The notes under the pieces: model-generated
Told to the model about the DNA's origin: nothing
The model's database searches: none
The model's input: the letters and a program-made list of their open reading frames with translations, nothing else
Made by a program: the position numbers and the translations under genes
Shown: positions 3,315 to 60,041 of the stretch, piece by piece
Numbering within the stretch: position 1 is the stretch's first letter
How the letters are laid out: each line of letters starts with the position of its first letter
From: Methylobacterium organophilum
GTDB taxonomy: Bacteria > Pseudomonadota > Alphaproteobacteria > Rhizobiales > Beijerinckiaceae
Length of the DNA stretch: 64,000 bases
Direction of reading: 5' to 3'
NCBI RefSeq assembly: GCF_022179465.1
Contig: NZ_BPQV01000004.1
Location: forward strand, 310,001-374,000

Positions 3315-4220
3315 ATGGACCGCTGGCAGGCGATGCGGGTCTTCCTGCGCGTCGCGGAGAGCGGCGGCTTCGCGAGCGCGGCGCGCGCCCTCGCCCTGAG
3401 TCCGCCGGCGGTGACCCGCGCCGTCGCCGCACTGGAGGACACGATCGGGACGCGCCTCCTCACCCGGACCACGCGCTCGGTGAAGCTCACCGAAGCCGGC
3501 ACCCGCTACCTGGAGGATTGCCGGCGGATCCTGGGGGAGATCGAGGAGGCGGAGGCCGCCGCCGCGGGCTCCTACCGGCAGCCGACGGGCCTGCTCACCG
3601 TGACGGCCCCGGTCCAATTCGGCCGGATCCACGTGCTTCCGATCCTCACCGCGTATCTCGCGCAGCACGACGGCGTGACGGCGCGCGCCCTCTTCCTCGA
3701 CCGCATCGTCAACATGCTCGAAGACGGCGCCGATGTCGGGGTGCGGATCGGGCATCTGCCCGATTCCGGGCTCAGCGCGATCCGCGTCGGCCGCGTGCGC
3801 CAGGTGGTCTGCGCGGCGCCGGCCTATCTCGACCGGTATGGCGCACCGGATACGCCGCACGCCCTGCAGGACCACACCATCATCGCCTCGACCAACCTCT
3901 CCGCTACCCCAGAATGGCGCTTCGGCCGGGAGCGCAGGACGAGCGTGGCTTTGCGCCCGCGCCTGATCTGCAGCACCATCGACGCGGTGCTCGCCGCGGC
4001 CCTGGACGGGCAGGGCATCGCCCGCCTCCTGTCCTATCAGGTCGCCCCCGCCGTGGCGGAGGGGCGCTTGCGGCTCCTGCTCACCGACTACGAGGAAGAG
4101 CCACGGCCCGTCCATGTCGTGAGTCCGGAGGGACGGCGGGCACCGGCCAAGACGCGCGCCTTCATCGATCTCGCCGTGGAGCGGCTGCGCGCCAATCCGT
4201 GGATCAATCCTGAGGAGTAG
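3315..4220 (+). CDS. LysR-family transcriptional regulator
   Basis: A 301-residue LysR regulator. The N-terminal winged helix-turn-helix is plain: [26 protein letters not shown] then [26 protein letters not shown]. The effector domain follows from about residue 90. The start ATG is preceded by AGGAGGGCAG at a good distance. It resembles the CrgA/DmlR type that often governs a divergent redox gene. The neighbours suggest control of the GST and flavin-binding genes, with the palindrome at 3272-3290 as operator. It converges with the RNA methyltransferase gene, with 3 bases between the stops. Confidence 0.92.
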
Positions 4221-7623: not shown

Positions 7624-8979
7624 CTACCAAGCAGCGGATTCCCCATCCAGAGCCTCGTAGGACGGCGCCTCCGCACGCAGGCGGCGGCCGTTCGTGAGGA
7701 TGAGGCGGTTGGCGTGCGGACGGGCCAGCACCTCGTTGAGGGTGCGTGCGGCCAAGAGGATAAGGTCTGCCGGTCCCCCCTCGCGCACGGAGCCGGCTTC
7801 GAGGCCCATGATGGCGGCTGGGAGGGGGCCGACCATCGCCGGCGCGTCGGCGAAGGGGTGGTCGAGATGCAGGATCCGCACGCCCATGCGGAAGGTGTCG
7901 AGCACGTCGTGATCGCCGTAGGCGTAGAAGGCGTCGCGGCAATTGTCCCCGGCGATGGCCACCGGCACCCCGGCCGCCTTCAGCTCCTGCACCGGGGCGA
8001 CGCCGCGCCAGCGCGGGGTGCGGCCGCGGCTGCGGTCCTGGAGATACAGGTTCACCGTGGGCAGGGTAACGATGCGCAGGCCGGCCTGCGCCACCAGGGC
8101 GATGGTGGCGGCCGCGGTCTCCGGATCCTGCACGGCGAGGCTGCAGCAATGCCCGCAGGTCACGCGGCCCTCGTAGCCGTTGCGCAGCACCGCCCGGGCG
8201 ATCGCCGCCAGCGAGGCGGCCTGGGGATCGCCGGTCTCGTCGACATGGAGGTCCACGTCGAGATCGCGCTCCCGGGCGAGGCGGAAGAGATCGTCGAGGA
8301 GCCCGTCCATCTCGTCGAGCGCCTGCCCGTGCAGGCCGCCGGTCGGCCGGGTGACGCCGCCGATCAGGCCGCCCGATTCGGCGATGAGGTCGGCGAGCCG
8401 GATGCCGTAGGGGGTGGCATAGGCGTCGATCGGGGTGAGGCCGACGCCCTGCAGGGTGATCCGGCCGGCCCAGGCGTCGCGCATCTCGCGGAACACGCCC
8501 CAGGTCACCGCCGCCTGGTCGCGGGAGGAGCCCTCGCCCGCCCCGCTCTCCTGGCTGTCGAGATGGGTGCGGATCGCCGCCACGCCGTGGGCCTCGGCGC
8601 AGGCGAGGCCGAATTCCATGCGCCGGCGCAGATCCTCCGCGGTCCAGTAGCGGGTGCGGTCCGCGGTGGTGGCGTCGCGCGCGCCCGGGAAATCGCCGTC
8701 CGGGTTCGGCGTGCGCGCCACCGTATGGCCCTTGTCGAGATGGGTGTGCACGTCGATCAGGCGCGGCCAAGCCTGGCGCCCCTTCAGGTCGAAGGCGGGC
8801 AAGTCCGCGGGCCCATGGCCCGCGGGGACGATCCGGGCGAGCTTCCCGTCCGCCACGACGAGGTCGAGGAGGGGGCTCCCGTCCGCGTCGGTCGCAGCAC
8901 CCGCGGGCACGCCGCCGGGCAGGAAGACGCCCGGAACGCGGGCATTGCGCAGGAGATAGGCCGCAGCGTCGGGCAGCAT
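7624..8979 (-). CDS. Cytosine deaminase-like amidohydrolase
   Basis: A 451-residue metal-dependent amidohydrolase of the cytosine deaminase/N-acyl hydrolase type. Ligand motifs in order are DVHTHLDKGH (His78, His80), DLHVDETGD, CGHCCSL, and the final Asp in IAGDNCRDAFYAYGDHD. No signal peptide, so it is cytoplasmic. It follows the LysR gene by 35 bases on the same strand and is back to back with the ABC transporter/oxygenase run. This suggests it hydrolyses or deaminates the imported ring compound or a product of it. Actual substrate unknown; cytosine itself is not assured. Confidence 0.85.
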   Translation of the reverse strand: MLPDAAAYLLRNARVPGVFLPGGVPAGAATDADGSPLLDLVVADGKLARIVPAGHGPADLPAFDLKGRQAWPRLIDVHTHLDKGHTVARTPNPDGDFPGARDATTADRTRYWTAEDLRRRMEFGLACAEAHGVAAIRTHLDSQESGAGEGSSRDQAAVTWGVFREMRDAWAGRITLQGVGLTPIDAYATPYGIRLADLIAESGGLIGGVTRPTGGLHGQALDEMDGLLDDLFRLARERDLDVDLHVDETGDPQAASLAAIARAVLRNGYEGRVTCGHCCSLAVQDPETAAATIALVAQAGLRIVTLPTVNLYLQDRSRGRTPRWRGVAPVQELKAAGVPVAIAGDNCRDAFYAYGDHDVLDTFRMGVRILHLDHPFADAPAMVGPLPAAIMGLEAGSVREGGPADLILLAARTLNEVLARPHANRLILTNGRRLRAEAPSYEALDGESAAW

Positions 8980-9014
8980 CGTGGGTTCGGGTCCTTGATG
9001 GGCAGAAGAGGGGG

Positions 9015-9920
9015 TCAGTCGACCGCGCTGTGCTTCTCGAAGGCCGCCTCGAGGCGGCTCGCCAGGAGATGCGCCGGCCCGTCCAGGGAGGCGCGGGCAC
9101 GCTGGGACAGGGTCACCTTCTGGGTGATGGCGGCGGCGTCCGAGAGGGGCGTGAAGGCCAGCACCCCGCGGCGGATCTCCTCGCCGACATCGGACAGGTT
9201 CACGAAGGTGATGTGCGGCGGCGTCTGGGCGAGCCGCTTCATCAGCTCGATGGAATTGGTCTCGACGGCGGGGGTGAAGGTCGCGCCCTGGGGCACCAGC
9301 ATCTCCAGCACGTCGCGCAGGGTCATGGAGCGGTCGGCCGTGACGATCGGGTATTCGAGGCAATCGGCCATGCGCACGTGGAAGCGCCCGTTAAGGGGAT
9401 GCTCGGGCGCCATCACCGCGCCGAGCCGGTGCTCGAACTCGGCGATCCGGTGGAGGCGGGGATTGGGCGGCATGCGGTAGGCGAGCGCCAGATCCGCCTC
9501 GCCCGCGAGCACGGCCTGCACGATGTCGTCCACCGGCAGCACCGCGACCTTGACCACGATGCGGGGATTGGTCTCGCGGAACTCGCGGATCACGCCGGCC
9601 AGCACCCCCGCGGCGAGGCTCGCCATGGTCGCGACCGTCACCTCGCCGCGGGTCAGGCCCTTGAGGGAGGCGACCTGGGCGAGGACGCGGTCGTGCTCCT
9701 TCAGGGTCTCGCGCACGTGGCGCATCAGCACCTCGCCGGCGGCGGTGAGGCGAAGGCCCCGGGGGAGACGTTCGAAGAGCGGCGTGCCCATCTCCTCCTC
9801 CAGCGCGAGGATCTGACGGTTGATCGCGCTGGAGGCCACGTTGAGGCGGGTCGCCGCCCGCCGGATGGAGCCGCTGCGGGCGACCTCGTCGAGGTAGCCG
9901 AGCAGGCGATGATGCAACAT
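9015..9920 (-). CDS. LysR-family regulator of the transporter/oxygenase cluster
   Basis: A 301-residue LysR protein. Its N-terminal HTH is LLGYLDEVARSGSIRRAATRLNVASSAINRQILALEEEMG, followed by a substrate-binding-like effector domain. It is first in a two-gene minus-strand unit with the amidohydrolase and diverges from the binding-protein gene across 368 bases. This is the classic layout for a LysR protein that activates the divergent catabolic operon in response to its substrate; that role is inferred. Confidence 0.92.
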   Translation of the reverse strand: MLHHRLLGYLDEVARSGSIRRAATRLNVASSAINRQILALEEEMGTPLFERLPRGLRLTAAGEVLMRHVRETLKEHDRVLAQVASLKGLTRGEVTVATMASLAAGVLAGVIREFRETNPRIVVKVAVLPVDDIVQAVLAGEADLALAYRMPPNPRLHRIAEFEHRLGAVMAPEHPLNGRFHVRMADCLEYPIVTADRSMTLRDVLEMLVPQGATFTPAVETNSIELMKRLAQTPPHITFVNLSDVGEEIRRGVLAFTPLSDAAAITQKVTLSQRARASLDGPAHLLASRLEAAFEKHSAVD

Positions 9921-10288
9921 GGACCCTCGCGACCCTCGTCCCGCCTTCCGGCGATGTGCTGCGACATCCGCGCGACCGTCCCGCGAGGCGGATATCGACC
10001 AAGCCCGCGTCTCTCGTGAACGCCAAGCCCCCGCGCAGGCCCTTAGCAGGGACCTTGCCAATCTCGGATCCGCATCACCGACGGCCGTCCTGACCGCTTT
10101 TTGAGAACGCTTCGAAGAGAGCGCCTAACCCCTTGCGGCATCGAGCCTGTGCAAACGCCCGGAGCCGCATCAGCGACCTCAAAACGCGCACACGCCGTCC
10201 GAAAAACGGTGCTTTCCAAGCAGCGATACGGCCGCCACCGTTCGGGCATCGACTCGGCACGGCCTGTGCGTCCGAAGGGCAGGCGGCA
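9921..10288. other. Divergent control region of the cluster
   Basis: 368 bases without a gene separate the LysR gene and the first binding-protein gene, so both promoters should lie here. No thi-box (TPP riboswitch) consensus or other riboswitch was recognised. A sigma-54-like element is at 10255-10270. Confidence 0.6.
10255..10270 (+). promoter_or_regulatory. Possible sigma-54 -24/-12 element
   Basis: CGGCACG-gcct-GTGCG has GG and GC separated by exactly 10 bases and resembles TGGCACG-N4-TTGCA, with mismatches at the first T, the first T of TTGC and the last base. A transcript would begin near 10281. That is very close to the ATG at 10289 and fits the ATG at 10313 better. No sigma-54 activator gene is nearby. 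Confidence 0.3.
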
Positions 10289-11335
10289 ATGTCCGGGCTA
10301 TGGGGGTTCCACATGCGGGCGTTCGGTTATCCTCGGCCTTCTGATGCGGTGCGGTCCCGTCCGGGCCGGCGCGTTATGCTGGCCGGCTTCGCCTCCGTCG
10401 CCGCGCTGACCCTGGCCGGCCCGGCCTCGGCGGCAGAGAAGATCGTGTTCCTCACGAGCTGGTACGCCCAGGCCGAGCATGGCGGCTTCTACCAGGCCAA
10501 GGCGACGGGCCTGTACGAGAAGGCGGGCCTCGACGTCGAGATCCGCATGGGCGGCCCGCAGGTCAACGGCATGCAGCTCCTGCTCGCCGGCGAGGCCGAC
10601 GCGATCATGGGCTTCGACTTCCAGGTCCTCCAGGCGGCCGAGAAGGGCCTGCCGGCGGTCACCGTCGCCGCCTCCTTCCAGTACGACCTCCAGGGCATGA
10701 TGACCCACGAGGACGTGAAGAGCCTGGCCGGGGTCAAGGACAAGACCATCCTGGTCGCGGGCTCGGGCATGACCTCCTGGTGGCCCTGGCTGAAGAAGAA
10801 ATACGCGCTCTCCGACGCGCAGGTGAAGGCCTATACCTTCAACCTGCAGCCCTTCTTCGCCGACAAGACCGTCGTCCAGCAGGCCTATCCCTCCTCCGAG
10901 CCGTTCCAGGCGCAGGAGAAGGGCGTGCCGGTGAACTTCTACCTCTTCGCGAAGGACGGCTATCCGCCCTACGGCACCACGATCGTCACCACCCGCAAGC
11001 TGATCGAGTCCAAGCCCGACGCGATGCGCAAGTTCGTGGCCGCCTCGATGGAGGGCTGGAAGAGCTACATGGCCGATCCGGCGCCGGGCAACGCGCTGAT
11101 CAAGAAGGACAACCCGAAGATGACCGACGGCCAGATCGCCTTCGGCATCGCCAAGCTGAAGGAACTCAAGGTGCTCGGCGGCGACGCCAACGTCCCGATT
11201 GGCACCATGACCGAGGCCCGTTGGAAGACCAGCTACGACTACCTCGTCGAAGCCGGCCTGCTGAAGCCCGAGACCGACTGGAAGAAGGCCTTCAGCCTCG
11301 CCTTCATGCCCGCCCTGACCGCAAAGGCCGAGTGA
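10289..11335 (+). CDS. ABC transporter binding protein, NMT1/THI5-like (first copy)
   Basis: A periplasmic binding protein of the NMT1/THI5 family, whose members bind pyrimidines, thiamine precursors, sulfonates and related compounds. From ATG 10289 it has 348 residues; ATG 10313 is also possible. The export signal has an Arg pair before the hydrophobic stretch (RPGRRVMLAGFASVAALTLAG, cut near ASA). The mature domain starts EKIVFLTSWYAQAEHGGFYQAKATG. It is a paralogue of the second binding protein at 14304. First gene of the plus-strand run, followed 7 bases later by the ATPase. Confidence 0.88.
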   Translation: MSGLWGFHMRAFGYPRPSDAVRSRPGRRVMLAGFASVAALTLAGPASAAEKIVFLTSWYAQAEHGGFYQAKATGLYEKAGLDVEIRMGGPQVNGMQLLLAGEADAIMGFDFQVLQAAEKGLPAVTVAASFQYDLQGMMTHEDVKSLAGVKDKTILVAGSGMTSWWPWLKKKYALSDAQVKAYTFNLQPFFADKTVVQQAYPSSEPFQAQEKGVPVNFYLFAKDGYPPYGTTIVTTRKLIESKPDAMRKFVAASMEGWKSYMADPAPGNALIKKDNPKMTDGQIAFGIAKLKELKVLGGDANVPIGTMTEARWKTSYDYLVEAGLLKPETDWKKAFSLAFMPALTAKAE

Positions 11336-11342
11336 GGACCCG

Positions 11343-12242
11343 ATGGCGGCGCTCGCCCGATCCTCCTCGCCGCGGCCCATGGAGGCGATCCCGCCCCAGC
11401 CGGCGCCCGAACGGATGAACCGGCCGGCCGCCAACGCCGCGCCGGCGGTGGAAGTGCTGTCCGCGGAGAAGGTCTTCCCGGACGGCACCCGCGGCCTGGC
11501 TCCGGTCAGCCTGACCGTGCGCGAGGGGGAGTTCATCTCGCTGATCGGCCCCTCGGGCTGCGGCAAGAGTACCCTGCTCTCCCTCATCGCCAACCTCGCC
11601 GAGCCGAGCGACGGCCGCCTGCTGTGGTGGCGCGGCGGCTTCGACGGGGTCGGCGCCGAGGGCCGGCGCATGTCGGTGGTGTTTCAGGACGCCACCCTGA
11701 TGCCCTGGCTGCGCATCGCCTCGAACGTGCGCCTGCCCCTCGACCTCGCGGGGGTCAAGAAGGCGGAGGCCGCGCCCCGCGTCCAGGCCGCGCTGGAGAT
11801 GGTCGGCCTCGGCGAGAAGGGCCGCAGCTATCCCCGCCAGCTCTCGGGCGGCATGCGCATGCGCGCGGCCATCGCCCGCGGCCTCGTCACCGAGCCGAAC
11901 CTCCTGCTCATGGACGAGCCCTTCGGCGCCCTCGACGAGTTCACCCGCAACAAGCTCGATTCCGACCTCGTCGACCTGTGGTGGCGGCGCTCGCTCACCG
12001 TGCTGTTCGTGACCCACTCGATCTACGAGGCGGTGTTCCTCTCGACCCGCATCATCGTGATGGCAGCCCGGCCGGGCCGGATCTTCGCCGAGATGACCAT
12101 CGACGAGCCCCATCCCCGCGGCGACGCCTTCCGGCGCAGCCCGCGCTTCGCCGAATATTGCCAGCGGCTCTCCAGCCTCCTGACCGAGGCCTCCCTCGCC
12201 AGCGACCCGGCGAGCACCGCCGCCCCGGAGGCCGAGGCATGA
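11343..12242 (+). CDS. ABC transporter ATPase, SsuB/TauB type
   Basis: The energising subunit of the importer, of the nitrate/sulfonate/pyrimidine group. In 299 residues: Walker A GPSGCGKST (69-77), Q-loop VVFQDATLMPWL, signature LSGGM (167-171), Walker B LLLMDEP ending at Asp191-Glu192, and the H-loop THSIYEA. The first 30 residues are a Pro/Ala-rich extension, and an internal ATG (residue 25) is a possible shorter start. Its stop overlaps the permease start (ATGA). Confidence 0.93.
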   Translation: MAALARSSSPRPMEAIPPQPAPERMNRPAANAAPAVEVLSAEKVFPDGTRGLAPVSLTVREGEFISLIGPSGCGKSTLLSLIANLAEPSDGRLLWWRGGFDGVGAEGRRMSVVFQDATLMPWLRIASNVRLPLDLAGVKKAEAAPRVQAALEMVGLGEKGRSYPRQLSGGMRMRAAIARGLVTEPNLLLMDEPFGALDEFTRNKLDSDLVDLWWRRSLTVLFVTHSIYEAVFLSTRIIVMAARPGRIFAEMTIDEPHPRGDAFRRSPRFAEYCQRLSSLLTEASLASDPASTAAPEAEA

Positions 12243-13030
12243 CCCCGCTGTCCAAGAATCCCCGCTTCCAGGCGGTGATGCCGCCGGTCGTGGTCGGGCT
12301 CTGCGTGCTCGGCCTGTGGGAGGCCCTGTGCCGCGGCTTCGCGATCCCGGAATACCTGTTCCCGGCGCCCACCGTGATCGCGGCCTCGCTCGTCCAGAAC
12401 GGGCCGGACCTGATGCACGCCCTGTGGAGCACGATCCGCGTGACGCTGATCGCCTTCGCCCTCTCCACGGTGCTCGGCACCCTGATCGCCTTCCTGTTCG
12501 TGCAGAGCCGCTTCATCGAGCGCGGCTTCTTCCCCTACGCGGTGATGCTGCAGGTCACCCCCGTGGTGGCGGTGGCCCCGCTCATCATCATCCTGGTGCG
12601 CGACACCCAGATCGCCCTCGTGATCTGCGCGACCATCATCGCGATCTTCCCGATGATCTCGAACACGACGGTGGGCCTGCGCAGCGTCGATCCGGGCCTC
12701 GTCAACCTGATGCGGGTCTACCGGGCCAACCGCCTGCAGACGCTCCTGCGCCTGCGCATCCCGAGCGCCCTCGGCTATTTCTTCGCGGGGCTGCGCATCT
12801 CCTCGGGCCTGGCGCTGATCGGCGCCGTCGTGGCGGAATTCGTGGCCGGCACCGGCGGGCGCAGCGCAGGGCTCGCCTACGAGATCCTTCAGGCCGGCTT
12901 CCAGCTCGACATTCCCCGGATGTTCGCCGCGCTCTCGCTGATCACCGCGGCCGGCATCCTCCTCTTCCTCGCCATGAGCGGACTGAGCCGCCTCGCGCTC
13001 GGCTCGTGGGGGGATCCCGAGCGGGCCTGA
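12239..13030 (+). CDS. ABC transporter permease
   Basis: A 263-residue inner-membrane permease of the BPD_transp_1 superfamily with about six hydrophobic segments. The EAA-type loop that contacts the ATPase lies in LMRVYRANRLQTLLRLRIPSA. It overlaps the ATPase stop by 4 bases. It probably serves both binding proteins of the cluster, since only one ATPase/permease pair is present. Confidence 0.92.
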   Translation: MTPLSKNPRFQAVMPPVVVGLCVLGLWEALCRGFAIPEYLFPAPTVIAASLVQNGPDLMHALWSTIRVTLIAFALSTVLGTLIAFLFVQSRFIERGFFPYAVMLQVTPVVAVAPLIIILVRDTQIALVICATIIAIFPMISNTTVGLRSVDPGLVNLMRVYRANRLQTLLRLRIPSALGYFFAGLRISSGLALIGAVVAEFVAGTGGRSAGLAYEILQAGFQLDIPRMFAALSLITAAGILLFLAMSGLSRLALGSWGDPERA

Positions 13031-13139
13031 GCGGCCCGCCCGTGCCAGGACGCGCCCCCGCTCATCGATCGACGGGGCGCGCCTCTCAACCACCGCATGC
13101 CGGAGGGCTTCACGCCGGGCATCATCGAAGGAGACTTCC

Positions 13140-14213
13140 ATGCTGACGACCCGTCAGAAGCTCTGGCGCCATTACTGGTACGCGACCCTGCGCATCGAGG
13201 ACCTGAAGGAGGGGCCGAAGCCCTTCACCCTGATGGGCGAGAAGATCGTGCTGTTCCTCGACGGCAACGGCGAGCCGGCGGCGATGATGGACCGCTGCTG
13301 CCACCGCACCGCCAAGCTCTCCAAGGGCTGGTGCGACAACGGCCTGATCGTGTGCGGCTATCACGGCTGGGCCTATGACCGGCACGGCGCCCTCGCCCGC
13401 ATCCCCCAGTTCAACCCGGATCAGGTGGTGCCGCGGCTCGCCGTGAAGGCCTATCACTGCACGGAGCGCTACGGCTACGCCTGGGTCTGCCTGGAGGAGC
13501 CCCGCGCGGCGATCCCCGAGATTCCCGAGGACACGATGCCCGGCTACCGGCGCATCCAGCAGTTCCACGACGTGTGGAAGACCTCGCCCCTGCGCCTGAT
13601 GGAGAATTCCTTCGACAACGCGCATTTCGCCTTCGTGCACAAGAACACGTTCGGGCAGATCGACCAGCCGATCCCGGAAAAGTACGAGATCACCGAGACC
13701 GATTACGGCTTCGAGGCGGAGACGATCATCACCATCGCCAACCCGCCGATGGCCCACCGCATCTCCGGCACCACCGAGCCGACCACCAAGCGCCACATGC
13801 GCAACAAGTGGTTCATGCCGTTCTGCCGCCGCCTCGACATCGCGTATCCGTCGGGACTGCGGCACATCATCTTCAACTCGGCGACGCCGATCGACGACGG
13901 CACCATCCGGCTCGCGCAGATCCTCTACCGCAACGATTCGGAGGCGGACTGCTCGACGCAGGAGCTGATCGCCTGGGACGCAGCGATCATCGAGGAGGAC
14001 CGCGACATCCTCGAATCGACCGATCCGGACGCGACCATCGACATGAGCCGCAAGGTCGAGAGCCACATGCCCTCCGACCGCCCGGGCATGATCATGCGCC
14101 GGCGCCTGCTCGCCCTCCTGCGGGAGCACGGCGAGGACGAGGTCTCGGAGGCGGTGCCCGCCGTCTCGGTACCCGTCGCCCCGACCCTGACGCCCCACGA
14201 GCAGATGGTCTGA
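13140..14213 (+). CDS. Rieske non-heme iron oxygenase, oxygenase component
   Basis: A 357-residue single-component-type Rieske oxygenase related to vanillate O-demethylase and N-demethylase alpha subunits. The [2Fe-2S] ligands are Cys53, His55, Cys72 and His75 (CCH ... CGYHGW). The mononuclear iron site is ENSFDNAHFAFVH, with bridging Asp159 and ligands His162 and His167. Such enzymes hydroxylate or demethylate ring compounds with electrons from a reductase. No dedicated ferredoxin reductase lies in the run. GAAGGAG precedes the ATG. Confidence 0.93.
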   Translation: MLTTRQKLWRHYWYATLRIEDLKEGPKPFTLMGEKIVLFLDGNGEPAAMMDRCCHRTAKLSKGWCDNGLIVCGYHGWAYDRHGALARIPQFNPDQVVPRLAVKAYHCTERYGYAWVCLEEPRAAIPEIPEDTMPGYRRIQQFHDVWKTSPLRLMENSFDNAHFAFVHKNTFGQIDQPIPEKYEITETDYGFEAETIITIANPPMAHRISGTTEPTTKRHMRNKWFMPFCRRLDIAYPSGLRHIIFNSATPIDDGTIRLAQILYRNDSEADCSTQELIAWDAAIIEEDRDILESTDPDATIDMSRKVESHMPSDRPGMIMRRRLLALLREHGEDEVSEAVPAVSVPVAPTLTPHEQMV

Positions 14214-14303
14214 CGCGCGCCCCCGCTCCTTTGTTCCCAGGACCCCGGCCGCGGTGCCGGGGTCTCCCGCACCATGCCTCTCACACGCCTGGAGATCCCC
14301 TCG

Positions 14304-15314
14304 ATGCCTGCTGCCGTCCCCTCCACCGCTCGCCACACCCGGCGAACGAGCCGCCTCCTCGCGGCGCTCGCGGTGGCGACAGGGCTCGCCGCCTCGCCGG
14401 CCCGCGCCCTGGAGAAGGTCAGCTTCGGCCTCAACTGGGTGCCGGAGGCGGAGCATTGCGGCTTCTTCCAGGCCAAGGCCCGGGGCTACTACGAGGCGGC
14501 GGGGCTCGACGTGGAGCTCAAGCCCGGCAACCCGAACGTGAACATGCCGCTCCTCGTCGCCTCGGGCGAGGTGAACATGGGCATGGGCTCAAGCTTCACC
14601 ACGCTCAACCTCGTCGCCAAGGGCGTGAAGGCGCGCACCGTCGCCTCGTTCTTCCAGAAGGACCCGCAGACCCTCGTCGCCCATGCCGGCCAGGGCGTGG
14701 CGACGCTGCAGGACCTCAAGGGCAAGCCGATCATGATCGGCGGGTTCTCGCGCAACGAGTTCTGGCAGTTCCTGAAGGCGGCCTACGGCTTCGACGACGG
14801 GCAGCTGCGGCCCTACGCCTATTCCGCCGCGCCCTTCCTCGCCGACAAGAAGGCGGTGCAGCAGGGCTACATCACCGACGACGCGGCGACCCTCGGCAAG
14901 GTCCTGCCCGAGCCGCCGGTCTCGATCCTGCTCGCCGATTACGGCTACAACAATTACGCGACCACGGTCTTCGCCACCGACGCCTATCTCGACACCCACA
15001 AGAAGACCGTGCGGGCCTTCCTGGATGCGAGCCGCAAGGGCTGGACCGAGTGCATGAGCGGCGACTACGCGCCGGCCATGAAGGCGGTGCTCGACCTCGT
15101 GCCGACCGGCGGCGAGGAGCTGTTCCACTTCAAGGTGGACCAGATGAAGAAGCGCGGCCTCGTCGAGGGGGGCGACGCGGAGACCCTCGGCATCGGCGCC
15201 ATGACCGATGCGCGCTGGAAGTCCTTCTTCGACGTGATGGTCAAGGCCGGCATCTACCCGGCCTCCCTCGACGTCACCAAGGCCTACACCCTCGAGTTCA
15301 TCGGCAAGAAGTAG
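14304..15314 (+). CDS. ABC transporter binding protein, NMT1/THI5-like (second copy)
   Basis: A second periplasmic binding protein in the same run, 336 residues from ATG 14304. That start has GGAG 9 bases upstream; ATG 14274 would add 10 residues. Signal peptide with HTRRTSRLLAALAVATGLAA, cut near ARA. The mature start, KVSFGLNWVPEAEHCGFFQAKARGYYEAAGLDVE, parallels the first copy. Both also share an ADK-x-VQQ-Y segment and a T-(E/D)-ARWK segment. The pair suggests two related ligands or a duplicated receptor feeding one transporter. Confidence 0.9.
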   Translation: MPAAVPSTARHTRRTSRLLAALAVATGLAASPARALEKVSFGLNWVPEAEHCGFFQAKARGYYEAAGLDVELKPGNPNVNMPLLVASGEVNMGMGSSFTTLNLVAKGVKARTVASFFQKDPQTLVAHAGQGVATLQDLKGKPIMIGGFSRNEFWQFLKAAYGFDDGQLRPYAYSAAPFLADKKAVQQGYITDDAATLGKVLPEPPVSILLADYGYNNYATTVFATDAYLDTHKKTVRAFLDASRKGWTECMSGDYAPAMKAVLDLVPTGGEELFHFKVDQMKKRGLVEGGDAETLGIGAMTDARWKSFFDVMVKAGIYPASLDVTKAYTLEFIGKK

Positions 15315-15331
15315 ACCCGGAGAGGCCGAAG

Positions 15332-16315
15332 ATGGACCTGCCGATCGTCGACATCGCCCCCTTCCTGCATGGGGACGCCGCCGCGCGGCGCTCGGTCGGT
15401 CGCGCCTTCGGCCACGCCTTCGAGACGACGGGCTTCGCCGTGGTCACCGGCCACGGCGTGCCCGAGCGGCTCGCCAACGAGCTCTACGGGGCGATGAAGC
15501 GCTACTTCGCCCAGGACCTCGCGGCGAAGCTGAAGGACACGCCGCCGGAGAAGACCAAGGGGCGGGGCTACCTGCCCATAGGTATCGAGAGCGTCGCCAA
15601 GACGCTCCGGGGCGAGACGCCGCCGGATCTCTGCGAGGCCCTGGTCTTCTCCGCGCCCCACCGCGAGGGCCGGGGCGGGCGCCCCAATCTCTGGCCGGAG
15701 GAACCGCCGGAGCTCGCCGCCCTCGTCGCGGCCTGGCGGGACGAGATCTTGGGCCTGTCCGCCCGGCTGACCCAGCTCTCGGCGCTGGCGCTCGACCTGC
15801 CGGAGGACCATTTCGCGCCCTTCTTCGCGGACCCGGCCCTGGTGCTGCGCTTCGTCCACTATCCCGACCAGCCGGAGCCCCCGGCCCCGGGCCAGCTGCG
15901 CTACGGCGCGCATCACGATTACGGCGGGCTGACCATCCTGCGCCAGGACGCGGCGCCCGGCGGGCTGGAGGTCGCCGACCGCGACGGCACCTGGCACGAG
16001 GCCCGGGTCGTGCCGGATTCCTTCGTGATCAATGTCGGGGACCTGATGTCCCGCTGGACCAACGGCCGCTGGCGCTCGACCCTGCACCGGGTCTCGAACC
16101 CGGACCGGTCGCTCACCGGCTCCACGGCGCGCCTGTCCATGGTCGCCTTCACGGGGCCGAACGAGGAATCCGAGGTGGCCTGCCTGCCGAGCTGCTGCGA
16201 CACGGCGCATCCCGCCCGGTTCGAGCCGGTGAAGGCCGGCGACTACATCATGGCCAAGCTGGCCGCCTCGATGGACCTGACGGCCCGCCCCGCCTCCCCG
16301 AAACCGGGTGCGTGA
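15332..16315 (+). CDS. Isopenicillin N synthase-family Fe(II)/2-oxoglutarate oxygenase
   Basis: A 327-residue oxygenase of the IPNS/2OG-Fe(II) family. The N-terminal domain is LPIVDIAPFLHG with GFAVVTGHGVP. The jelly-roll iron site is His194-x-Asp196 (AHHDYGGLTIL) with His252 (LHRVSNP), and Arg267-x-Ser269 (RLS) is placed to bind 2-oxoglutarate. Members hydroxylate small molecules, including ring carbons or N-methyl groups. It starts 17 bases after the second binding protein. Substrate unknown. Confidence 0.9.
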   Translation: MDLPIVDIAPFLHGDAAARRSVGRAFGHAFETTGFAVVTGHGVPERLANELYGAMKRYFAQDLAAKLKDTPPEKTKGRGYLPIGIESVAKTLRGETPPDLCEALVFSAPHREGRGGRPNLWPEEPPELAALVAAWRDEILGLSARLTQLSALALDLPEDHFAPFFADPALVLRFVHYPDQPEPPAPGQLRYGAHHDYGGLTILRQDAAPGGLEVADRDGTWHEARVVPDSFVINVGDLMSRWTNGRWRSTLHRVSNPDRSLTGSTARLSMVAFTGPNEESEVACLPSCCDTAHPARFEPVKAGDYIMAKLAASMDLTARPASPKPGA

Positions 16316-16439
16316 CGGGGCGCGAGGCGCCTGTCTTGCATCGCCCGTCCCGAAAGCCGCCCCCCTTCCGGGACGATGGGCGACACCCGCGGCGCGGCCG
16401 TGAGCCCGGTCCGCATCTTCCGACGAAGAGCCATAGCCC

Positions 16440-17822
16440 ATGACCCGCCATCCCTCGCCCGAAGCCCTGGCCGCCCTGCGCAGCGAGCTCGCCGGCCGCG
16501 TCGCCCTCGTGGAGGAGCCCTCCCGGGTCCGGAAGCGCTCGCGGGACTTCTTCTGGTACTCGCCGGTGCTCAACGCCCAGCTCAACGGCCTGTCAGCGGA
16601 TGTCGTGGTCGAGGCGGGAAGCGAGGCGGACGTGATCGCGGTGGCCTCGGCCTGCGCCCGCCACGGCGTGCCCCTGACCGTGCGCGGCGGCGGCACCGGC
16701 AATTACGGTCAGGCGGTGCCGCTCCAGGGCGGCGTGCTCCTCGACATGAGCGGGCTCGCCACCATCGAATGGCAGCGGGACGGGGCGGTGCGCACCGGCC
16801 CCGGCATCAAGATGAACCGGCTCGACGCGGAACTCGCCCCCGGGGGCGAGGAGATCCGCATGCATCCCTCCACCAAGCGCACCGCCACCATCGGCGGCTT
16901 CATCGCCGGGGGCTCGGGGGGCATCGGCTCGGTGAATTACGGGCAGCTGCGCGAGCGCGGCAACATTCGCGCCGCGCGGGTGGTGACCCTGGAAGCGGAA
17001 CCGAAGGTGCTGGAGCTGACCGGCGACCGCGTCCACGGGGTCGCCCATGCCTACGGCACCACCGGCATCATCACCGCGCTGGAGATGCCCCTCGCCCCCG
17101 CCCGCCCCTGGATCGACGTGATCGTCGCCTTCGACGACTTCCTCGCCGCCGCGGAATGCGGCCTGGCGGTCGGGCGCGATGCCGCGATCGGCAAGAAGCT
17201 GATCACCCCGATCGCCTGGCCGCTGCCGCAATGGTTCACGGGCCTCAAGGCCTATTGCCCCGAGGGCCAGGCGATCCTGATCGCGATGATCGCGGAGGAC
17301 ACGCTGCCCGCCTTCCGGGCGCGGGTGGCCGAGGCCGGCGGGCGCATCACCCTGGAGACGCCGCTGGACGACGGCCCCGGCAGCGTGCCGCTCTACGAAT
17401 ACACCTGGAACCACAGCACCCTGCAGGTGCTCAAGACCGACCGCAGCTGGACCTACCTGCAGAGCCTGCATCCGGCCGAGGGGCTGATGGAGAGCGTCGC
17501 CGCGATGGCCGCGCGCTTCCCCGGCGAGATCGTGCCGCATCTCGAGCTCATCGAGTTCGCCGGCAAGCTCACCTATGCCGGCATCCCGCTCCTGAAATTC
17601 ACCACCGAGGAGCGGCTGAACGCGATCATCGCCGAGCACGAGGCGAGCGGCGTCTGGATCGCCAATCCCCATGTCTACACGCTGGAGGACGGCACGAGGC
17701 ACAAGCGGGCGGAGACCGACCAGCTCGGCTTCAAGCGGCTCACCGACCCGGCCGGCCTGATGAATCCCGGCAAGATGCGCAGCTTCACCCCGGCGGATGC
17801 CGAGGCAAGCCTTCCGGCATGA
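16440..17822 (+). CDS. FAD-binding oxidoreductase (VAO/PCMH, GlcD-like)
   Basis: A 460-residue flavoprotein with an N-terminal PCMH-type FAD domain: LTVRGGGTGNYGQAVPLQGG (about 82-101) and GGFIAGGSGGIGSVNYGQ (about 153-170). The C-terminal DPAGLMNPGKM is the usual GlcD/D-lactate dehydrogenase-type ending. It oxidises a C-OH or C-N bond with FAD. The gap before it is 124 bases, and its stop overlaps the next gene by 4 bases. Confidence 0.9.
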   Translation: MTRHPSPEALAALRSELAGRVALVEEPSRVRKRSRDFFWYSPVLNAQLNGLSADVVVEAGSEADVIAVASACARHGVPLTVRGGGTGNYGQAVPLQGGVLLDMSGLATIEWQRDGAVRTGPGIKMNRLDAELAPGGEEIRMHPSTKRTATIGGFIAGGSGGIGSVNYGQLRERGNIRAARVVTLEAEPKVLELTGDRVHGVAHAYGTTGIITALEMPLAPARPWIDVIVAFDDFLAAAECGLAVGRDAAIGKKLITPIAWPLPQWFTGLKAYCPEGQAILIAMIAEDTLPAFRARVAEAGGRITLETPLDDGPGSVPLYEYTWNHSTLQVLKTDRSWTYLQSLHPAEGLMESVAAMAARFPGEIVPHLELIEFAGKLTYAGIPLLKFTTEERLNAIIAEHEASGVWIANPHVYTLEDGTRHKRAETDQLGFKRLTDPAGLMNPGKMRSFTPADAEASLPA

Positions 17823-18415
17823 CGACCCCCAAGAACGTCCTGTACGTCTACTGCCATCCCCTGCCGGAGAGCTTCCACGCGGCGATCCGCGAGGCGGCGC
17901 TGGCGGGGCTGCGGGAGGCCGGGCACCGGGTCGACCTGCTCGACCTCTACGCGGAGGGCTTCGATCCCGTTCTCTCGGCGGAGGGGCGGCGCCACTACCA
18001 CGACACCGCCGTGAACCGGCGCGGGCTCGAAGCCTACGTGGCCCGGCTCCAGGCGGCGGAGGTGCTGGTGGTGCAATTCCCGACCTGGTGCTTCGGGCCG
18101 CCGGCCATGCTGAAGGGCTTCGTCGACCGGCTGATGATGCCCGGCGTCGCCTTCGACATGTCGGATCCGCGCCATGTGCGCCCGATCCTCGACAGCCTGA
18201 AGCGGATCGTCGGCGTGGTGACCTATGGCCGGCCGCGCTGGATGGCGCTCGCCATGCAGGATCCGCCGCGCCGGCTGGTGACGCGCTACCTGCGCTGGTT
18301 CGCGGCTTCGCGGGCGCGGGCCGACTACCTCGCCCTCTACCACATGAACGTGGCGACCGACGCCAAGCGCCGCGCCTTCCTGGAGAAGGTGCGGTTGAAG
18401 ATGTCGAGACTGTAG
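17819..18415 (+). CDS. NAD(P)H-dependent flavodoxin-fold oxidoreductase
   Basis: A 198-residue Flavodoxin_2/quinone-reductase-type protein. The phosphate loop is CHPLPESFHAAI, and the flavin ring contact is in QFPTWCFGPPAMLKGFVDR. It ends the plus-strand run and is coupled to the FAD gene (ATGA). It could pass electrons to the Rieske enzyme, which otherwise lacks a reductase here, or reduce a ring product. That is inference. Confidence 0.87.
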   Translation: MTTPKNVLYVYCHPLPESFHAAIREAALAGLREAGHRVDLLDLYAEGFDPVLSAEGRRHYHDTAVNRRGLEAYVARLQAAEVLVVQFPTWCFGPPAMLKGFVDRLMMPGVAFDMSDPRHVRPILDSLKRIVGVVTYGRPRWMALAMQDPPRRLVTRYLRWFAASRARADYLALYHMNVATDAKRRAFLEKVRLKMSRL

Positions 18416-36851: not shown

Positions 36852-36927
36852 TGGCTCCCCGAGCAGGACTCGAACCTGCGACAAGGCGATTAACAGTCGC
36901 CTGCTCTACCAACTGAGCTATCGGGGA
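36852..36927 (-). tRNA. tRNA-Asn (GTT)
   Basis: On the minus strand TCCCCGATAGCTCAGTTGG begins a full cloverleaf of 76 bases with encoded CCA. The anticodon loop is CTGTTAA (anticodon GTT), and the T-loop is GTTCGAGTC. Confidence 0.97.
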
Positions 36928-37175: not shown

Positions 37176-37249
37176 GGCCTCGTGGCGGAGTGGTTACGCA
37201 GAGGACTGCAAATCCTTGCACCCCGGTTCGATTCCGGGCGAGGCCTCCA
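37176..37249 (+). tRNA. tRNA-Cys (GCA)
   Basis: GGCCTCGTGGCGGAGTGG begins a 74-base cloverleaf with encoded CCA. The anticodon loop is CTGCAAA (anticodon GCA), the T-loop is GTTCGATTC, and the acceptor pairs GGCCTCG with CGAGGCC. Confidence 0.97.
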
Positions 37250-59843: not shown

Positions 59844-59905
59844 GCAGGCCGGAGGGGGCGCGAACCAAAACAGTTGTTGCGCGTTGGAATTACACAACCT
59901 GAACG

Positions 59906-59931
59906 AGAAAAAGGCCGCCTGGAAGGCGGCC
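59906..59931 (-). terminator. Terminator for the yoaK-like unit
   Basis: Read on the minus strand, GGCCGCCT-TCC-AGGCGGCC is an 8 bp stem followed by TTTTTCTCG. It lies about 160 bases past the stop of the minus-strand membrane-protein gene. Confidence 0.8.
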
Positions 59932-60041
59932 CGAAGTTCAGGGAGGAAACGCCCAAGAAGGGCAGGCGTGTGAGGCCATCACCGCGCCGTACCGCGACAA
60001 CGGAGGCCGAACAGGCATTGTTCCGAGCCGGGGACGGGACG

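Follow-up and report, generated by a model that had tools for sequence, protein, structure and literature searches.

A LysR-bearing relative of the xanthine-riboswitch gene set in Methylobacterium organophilum and its probable part in nucleobase uptake and oxidation

Within a 64,000-nucleotide stretch of the Methylobacterium organophilum genome (RefSeq assembly GCF_022179465.1, contig NZ_BPQV01000004.1, forward-strand positions 310,001 to 374,000; hereafter the window), ten genes, all of them open and intact, occupy positions 7624-18415 and form two divergent arms in which a transporter with two receptors is combined with two oxygenases, an amidohydrolase and a regulator. We read this cluster as a module for the uptake and oxidation of a nucleobase, with purines and modified purines as the likeliest candidates, and give that reading a probability of roughly 0.6. 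The purine class is favoured because orthologues of the cluster's genes stand behind a xanthine riboswitch in other bacteria and because purine-breakdown genes lie near the cluster in sister genomes. Since the orthologues are shared but the riboswitch that defines the known gene set was not found here, we file the cluster as a LysR-controlled variant of that set. The initial annotation of the window, made by a model from the letters and open reading frames, had proposed the import and oxidation of an N-heterocycle; our analysis is consistent with this and narrows the proposal to nucleobases, most likely purines. It had also described a divergent ten-gene module, and its gene order and strands were borne out for all ten open reading frames, listed here with the gap between the arms:

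7624..8979, minus strand: AMID, amidohydrolase of the PRK07583 'cytosine deaminase' family (629.6 bits, cut-off 403), function putative
9015..9920, minus strand: LysR-type regulator (family scan), presumed controller of both arms
9921..10375, no strand: divergent regulatory gap, without a xanthine riboswitch match
10313..11335, plus strand: SBP1, NMT1-type solute-binding protein with a leader (NMT1 family), alternative start at 10376
11343..12242, plus strand: ATPase of an ATP-binding cassette (ABC) transporter (family scan)
12239..13030, plus strand: ABC transporter permease (family scan)
13140..14213, plus strand: RSK, Rieske oxygenase (Rieske and VanA_C domains)
14274..15314, plus strand: SBP2, second NMT1-type solute-binding protein (NMT1 family), start at 14274 or 14304
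15332..16315, plus strand: DIOX, Fe(II)/2-oxoglutarate oxygenase of the IPNS-like superfamily (DIOX_N and 2OG-FeII_Oxy)
16440..17822, plus strand: FAD_binding_4 (VAO-type) oxidoreductase (family scan)
17819..18415, plus strand: Flavodoxin_2 NAD(P)H oxidoreductase (family scan)

The strongest pointer to a substrate class came from the NMT1-motif RNA (RF03054), which binds xanthine and uric acid and switches genes off (PMC7373994, of which part of the text was available). The genes placed under its control in that text include NMT1-like and TauA-like receptors, IPNS-like and Rieske oxygenases and PRK12393 amidohydrolases; the NMT1/THI5-like genes among them are distinct from the NMT1 genes of thiamin, and the available text describes the exact roles of the linked dioxygenases as not established at the time. 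An RSK-anchored scan of genome contigs returned 79 loci, of which 43 with at least 44% identity (L009-L051) were used and the 36 weakest (L052-L087, at most 40%) were excluded from the counts. Altogether, RSK orthologues of 57-60% identity stand behind RF03054 in ten loci, six reached through the RSK search and four through a search anchored on the riboswitch itself, and three of the ten are SBP1-Rieske-transporter operons. The six came from an Rfam scan of 36 of the 43 loci: in L035, L036, L038, L039 and L042 the riboswitch ends 66-93 bases upstream of the RSK match (57-59% identity), and in L034 it precedes an operon of SBP1, DIOX, RSK, ATPase, permease, PRK12393 and FNR genes. The riboswitch-anchored search found RF03054 in 16 of 398 genomes of the phylum and fetched 17 loci from these 16; RSK (57-60%) follows the riboswitch in four (L117, L120, L129, L130), SBP1 (52-64%) likewise in four (L119, L121, L129, L130), and weaker DIOX-like genes (24-34%) are found in 13. 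In L131, which comes from the same taxonomic order as the window, RF03054 is followed by a DIOX-like gene, LysR (53%) and AMID (60%).

A tree of RSK proteins pointed the same way. Its 64 rows exclude duplicates, sister rows (L002, L134, L156-L160), rows shorter than 250 residues and rows under 26% identity, and a clade of 42 rows with support of 100/100 contains the window's protein and all ten riboswitch-linked rows, which fall into two groups of three and seven. The cluster shares with the riboswitch-controlled sets, as the available text of PMC7373994 gives them, NMT1-type receptors, IPNS-like and Rieske oxygenases and an amidohydrolase, and its RSK, SBP1, LysR and AMID genes all have riboswitch-linked orthologues. 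It differs from those sets in being without the riboswitch and in adding LysR, FAD and flavodoxin-fold genes, and its amidohydrolase is of the PRK07583 type, whereas the riboswitch-linked SBP1-RSK operons (L034, L129, L130) have a PRK12393-type deaminase.

The second line of evidence lies in the surroundings of the cluster in five sister genomes, in all of which an OHCU decarboxylase-type gene is found on the same contig, 18.1-26.6 kb from RSK. In G605 the intervening stretch begins with an amidohydrolase-family gene, a VanA_C protein, a pucD-like oxidoreductase (728 bits, cut-off 783.65) and a HIUase; it continues through PuuE allantoinase/OHCU decarboxylase, a Urate_ox_N protein, ureidoglycine aminohydrolase, ureidoglycolate lyase and RutA, and ends with genes read as further Rut genes (unscanned), an NMT1-type transporter, a further molybdenum hydroxylase, a guanine deaminase (561.2 bits, cut-off 375.4) and the cluster. 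The stretches of G611, G674 and G607 match by tblastn (88-99%) for PuuE/OHCU decarboxylase, the Urate_ox_N protein, ureidoglycine aminohydrolase and RutA, and the short contig of G677 carries an OHCU decarboxylase/HIUase fusion instead. The 20-kb cluster loci include guanine deaminase in four sisters, G607 being the one in which it was not seen, and the Urate_ox_N protein is in the fetched island of four (scanned in G605, with relatives 89-96% identical in three). Downstream of the cluster, behind a CoA-ligase-like gene, the sisters carry a pair of creatininase-family and CocE genes. M. organophilum has a pair 73-78% identical to it on another contig, where it adjoins uricase, OHCU decarboxylase/HIUase, allantoate amidohydrolase and 8-oxoguanine deaminase, and across 60 genus genomes the creatininase-family gene (E up to 1e-80) occurs in four, the same four that have RSK (p 2e-6, uncorrected for kinship).

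No protein matched TIGR02965 (xanthine dehydrogenase) above its cut-off, and the pucD-like fused protein of the M. organophilum genome scored 690.5 bits against a cut-off of 783.65; relatives of it turned up in four of the five cluster-bearing sisters and in none of five cluster-free genus genomes tried. Given this protein and its relatives in the four sisters, the idea of a cluster standing in for xanthine dehydrogenase was discarded. Near the pucD-like oxidoreductase and deaminase-family genes there is, in both M. organophilum (L263:12049-12912, contig C7) and G605 (L257:4962-5837), a VanA_C-type protein of 288-292 residues that keeps the D-x2-H-x4-H iron motif and is without the Rieske CxH...CxxH motif; from these motifs it is possibly an oxygenase without a Rieske cluster of its own in a purine operon. 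Roughly 16 kb separate the M. organophilum uricase gene from a gene for a second, distant Rieske protein (26% identity over 68% of RSK; L162:10339-11433, contig C14).

The conservation of the cluster was followed from two anchors. The closest relatives of RSK belong to Methylorubrum species (89-92% identity), which marks the host as Methylorubrum-like, and RSK occurs in 6 of 112 genus genomes, that of M. organophilum included, so that its distribution across the genus is patchy. Four of the five sister genomes have all ten genes, and DIOX was not found in the fifth, G677. (Loci L009, L010, L011 and L018 come from the same genomes as G611, G674, G677 and G171, and no extra genomes were counted for them.) By gene caller, the 43 RSK loci contain SBP1 in 25, the permease in 24, the ATPase in 23, FAD oxidoreductase in 16, AMID and LysR in 13 each, the flavodoxin-fold reductase in 7, DIOX in 5 and SBP2 in 4, and also creatininase-family genes in 21, isochorismatase-family genes in 15, a PRK12393 deaminase-like gene in 11 and an FNR-type reductase (FNR and Fer2 domains) in 5; several contigs are incomplete, and some genes detected by tblastn escape the caller. 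The gene-neighbourhood comparison called for by the initial annotation thus found the receptor, permease and ATPase genes together with RSK beyond the genus and not scattered. By tblastn the full set of ten is present in 3 of the 43, L009 and L010 from the same genus and L037 from Chelatococcus, which is to say that the core is widespread and the exact set rare, being found outside the genus in one locus only. To our knowledge no pathway with precisely these ten genes has been characterised. The literature searched, whose coverage leaves most subscription journals and bioRxiv outside, gave no description of the combination either, in keeping with the initial annotation, but the gene families themselves have precedent at the xanthine riboswitch in the available text of PMC7373994, and there only as families.

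Among 385 genomes of the class, a search anchored on AMID, with at most four candidates scored per genome, found the gene in 19, that of M. organophilum included. Seventeen of the remaining 18 supplied nineteen loci (one match at a contig edge was omitted), and these contain the ATPase and the permease in 12 each, the reductase in 11, FAD oxidoreductase and creatininase-family genes in 10 each, and RSK in 3; the counts suggest that AMID, transporter, FAD oxidoreductase and reductase form a wider core to which RSK was added in some lineages. A search of plasmids (E up to 1e-40) matched six records. Alternative parts appear to exclude one another in the 24 RSK loci that have both SBP1 and the permease, which are related, so that p values are only a guide. 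AMID is present in 12 of the 24 and the PRK12393 type in 11, never both (p 5e-6), which suggests that the two amidohydrolase families, PRK07583 and PRK12393, fill one role and serve one shared reaction. FAD oxidoreductase (14/24) and FNR-type reductase (5/24) likewise never occur together (p 0.006).

In the window itself the minus arm consists of AMID and the LysR gene, and the plus arm (10313-18415) runs from SBP1 through ATPase, permease, RSK, SBP2, DIOX and FAD oxidoreductase to the flavodoxin-fold reductase. Neighbours overlap or are closely spaced, as had been claimed, with overlaps of 4 bp at ATPase/permease and FAD/reductase, gaps of 7 bp between SBP1 and ATPase and 17 bp between SBP2 and DIOX, and wider ones of 35 bp (AMID-LysR), 109 bp (permease-RSK) and 124 bp (DIOX-FAD). 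The divergent gap measures 392 or 455 bp, depending on whether SBP1 starts at 10313 or 10376, and no regulatory element was identified in its alignment with five relatives; a CRISPR-DR33 match at 10121-10157 was under the gathering score and was taken as chance. The two binding proteins are indeed paralogues, with 37% identity over 331 columns.

The individual proteins set limits on how their family names are to be read. RSK has the motifs C53-x-H55, C72-x2-H75 and D159-x2-H162-x4-H167, which we take to be the Rieske cluster and mononuclear-iron sites, and its nearest relatives in the PDB are SxtDIOX, SxtT and NdmA, the first two outscoring NdmA/NdmB; the latter, methylxanthine N-demethylases, are on these matches (E 3.5e-32 to 4.2e-28) among its nearest solved relatives, though distant ones, and any likeness in function is putative. 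HpxDE of Klebsiella is a Rieske oxygenase and reductase for hypoxanthine and xanthine (PMC7373994, in its available text). Like it, the cluster has a Rieske oxygenase, with both Rieske and mononuclear-iron motifs, in a purine setting, and FNR+Fer2 reductase genes accompany RSK in the 5 of 43 related loci mentioned above; unlike it, the window's cluster has no linked FNR/[2Fe-2S] reductase that could be found, and it is not an HpxDE system in the narrow meaning of the name. DIOX has the HxD...H motif (H194-x-D196 and H252) and the RxS motif (R267-x-S269), and its nearest PDB relatives are 9ovh (an ethylene/succinate-forming enzyme), 6jyv and thymine dioxygenase.

In AMID the metal ligands H78, H80, H245, H277 and D345 are invariant across 26 aligned sequences, the window's included, and the folds nearest to its model (mean predicted local distance difference test score, pLDDT, 84) are 5-methylcytosine deaminase, CodA and AtzC, with which it shares the fold and the metal centre (HxH, H, H, D) at 22-25% identity in the structural match. 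AMID differs from CodA at the column of the substrate-binding glutamine, presumably Gln156 in the CodA structures, where Gln is not kept. The description as a cytosine-deaminase-like amidohydrolase therefore stood as to the PRK07583 family and its metal ligands and fell at the substrate position: as far as the alignment can be read, 'cytosine deaminase' is a family name only and the CodA label is unsupported there. The nearest structures to the SBP1 model (mean pLDDT 92) are 3ix1 and 4nmy, and formylaminopyrimidine-binding (ThiY-like), thiamin-binding and Thi5 chains rank before TauA and SsuA; the modelled fold would fit a heterocycle ligand, not purines in particular.

A number of these results weigh against a purine module and keep our confidence in it limited. 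RF03054 is absent from the window in the Rfam scan and was not found in the M. organophilum genome under strict filters, from which we infer control by LysR, which presumably takes the riboswitch's place. Only 6 of the 36 scanned RSK loci carry the riboswitch, none with it falls in the window's 29-row RSK subclade (23 rows scanned), and it was found in none of the 8 scanned among the 19 AMID-anchored loci; identities of 57-60%, moreover, would not fix a substrate. No purine genes were seen beside the window's own cluster. The sister islands are not independent, and because the sisters are close kin we treat their shared islands as one observation; purine genes 18-27 kb away need not be co-regulated with the cluster. 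Uricase (E up to 1e-60) is present in 50 of 60 genus genomes; none was detected in 3 of the 4 that have RSK versus 7 of the 56 that do not (p 0.013), which weakens a simple purine-to-uricase story. Of these three uricase-negative genomes, two (G607 and G674) do carry a gene of the Urate_ox_N-like kind, with 89-94% identity to that of G605; the corresponding stretch of the third, G677, was not seen. Family scans found no FNR/ferredoxin-type reductase for RSK in the cluster, and a supply of RSK by the FAD/flavodoxin-fold pair, which was considered, would be conjecture.

The fold of SBP1 and the presence of RutA in four of the five sister islands, with neighbours read as further Rut genes, also count against purines, and they are what makes a pyrimidine substrate a real rival, together with the nearest folds of AMID, 5-methylcytosine deaminase and CodA. 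A 4-aminopyrimidine, either 5-methylcytosine or the hydroxymethylpyrimidine (HMP) moiety of thiamine, would be imported (the folds nearest to SBP1 bind pyrimidines), deaminated by AMID and oxidised at its methyl or hydroxymethyl group by DIOX, which matches thymine dioxygenase, and by RSK and the FAD enzyme. We nonetheless hold this unlikely, given that orthologues of RSK, SBP1, LysR and AMID stand behind a riboswitch for xanthine and urate, that the CodA glutamine is not kept, and that the riboswitch-tied NMT1/THI5-like genes are set apart from those of thiamin in the available text of PMC7373994. Thiamine breakdown, the first alternative that the NMT1/THI5 label and the SBP1 fold brought to mind, is kept only as a part of this pyrimidine route.

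The related loci could instead speak for a pathway that uses their genes of the creatininase and isochorismatase families together with the amidohydrolase on a urea- or guanidine-like ring other than a nucleobase, such as creatinine or hydantoin: of the 43 RSK loci, 21 have creatininase-family and 15 isochorismatase-family genes, 10 of the 19 AMID loci likewise have creatininase-family genes, and in one locus, L030, guanidine-II and guanidine-I riboswitches (524-573 and 3398-3505) lie on the minus strand at a distance of a few kb from the module. The window's cluster, however, contains neither a creatininase-family nor an isochorismatase-family gene, the best NCBIfam creatininase-type scores are under their cut-offs (98.7 versus 172 and 94.6 versus 235), and the guanidine riboswitches are found in only 1 of the 36 scanned RSK loci and outside the module, all of which makes such a ring doubtful, and less probable than a pyrimidine. 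A link to triuret or biuret through isochorismatase-family genes (PMC7948467 and PMC12625717, each available in part) was dropped, as the cluster has no such gene. That an ordinary sulfonate, taurine or nitrate transporter merely happens to stand beside unrelated oxygenases is hardly credible: the ABC genes do score on the SsuA_fam, taurine and nitrate families, but all below cut-off, the SsuA_fam scores being 32.6 and 23.6 bits against the 163.5 of NCBIfam for a sulfonate receptor; TauA and SsuA come behind ThiY, thiamin-binding and Thi5 chains in the SBP1 ranking; and the recurring neighbours examined included no recognisable sulfonate or nitrate enzyme, TauD-family genes in four loci excepted.

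Returning to nucleobase uptake and oxidation as the preferred reading, SBP1 would hand the base to the ATPase/permease pair for import, and SBP2 may do the same for another ligand. In the cytoplasm RSK would hydroxylate or dealkylate the ring, DIOX may perform a second oxidation, AMID would take off an exocyclic amine or alkylamine, and the FAD oxidoreductase and flavodoxin-fold reductase would carry out later redox steps, with the product entering the xanthine/urate catabolism encoded elsewhere in the genome. The LysR protein, whose gene adjoins AMID, would sense substrate or product in place of the riboswitch of some relatives. What the data establish directly is the gene content, its conserved linkage, the riboswitches ahead of orthologues and the purine genes in the vicinity of the sister clusters; the substrate, the sequence of reactions, the electron donor and the part played by LysR are deduced from these. 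The receptors, two oxygenases, amidohydrolase and regulator are found together here in a riboswitch-free, LysR-bearing version, and ligand-binding and growth tests become straightforward.

A more specific form of the proposal, tentative and rather improbable as it stands, is that the module mineralises N-methylated or N-alkylated purine bases and delivers plain xanthine or urate. It would import methylguanines and methyladenines derived from RNA, plant methylxanthines or cytokinin-like bases; RSK and DIOX would N-dealkylate them, and AMID, which is distantly related to AtzC, an enzyme that releases alkylamine, would strip ammonia or alkylamine. A modified purine would explain why extra enzymes are present, since the sisters already have a guanine deaminase and an enzyme like xanthine dehydrogenase, and M. 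organophilum has the pucD-like one. If true, this route would give a methylotroph both nitrogen and formaldehyde, and would explain the co-occurrence of the cluster with guanine deaminase and the xanthine dehydrogenase-like enzyme in the sisters as well as the shutting off of riboswitch-linked relatives by xanthine.

Some further features of the RSK loci were recorded along the way. Three Rieske genes, 47-67% identical to the window's, are clustered within one locus in L033 (10001-13130), L041 (7461-10869) and L021 (10001-15223). A TauD-family 2-oxoglutarate oxygenase gene shares the locus with RSK in L021, L022, L040 and L051, and in L021 follows immediately after it; the fungal xanthine hydroxylase XanA is a member of the TauD family. 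In two Martelella genomes a flavin mononucleotide (FMN) riboswitch lies on the minus strand just past the RSK-LysR pair (L022:12979-13151 and L040:13307-13476). Elsewhere in the window there are a suhB/mmgR small RNA at 59898-59970 on the minus strand (62.4 bits) and two tRNAs, at 36855-36927 and 37176-37246.

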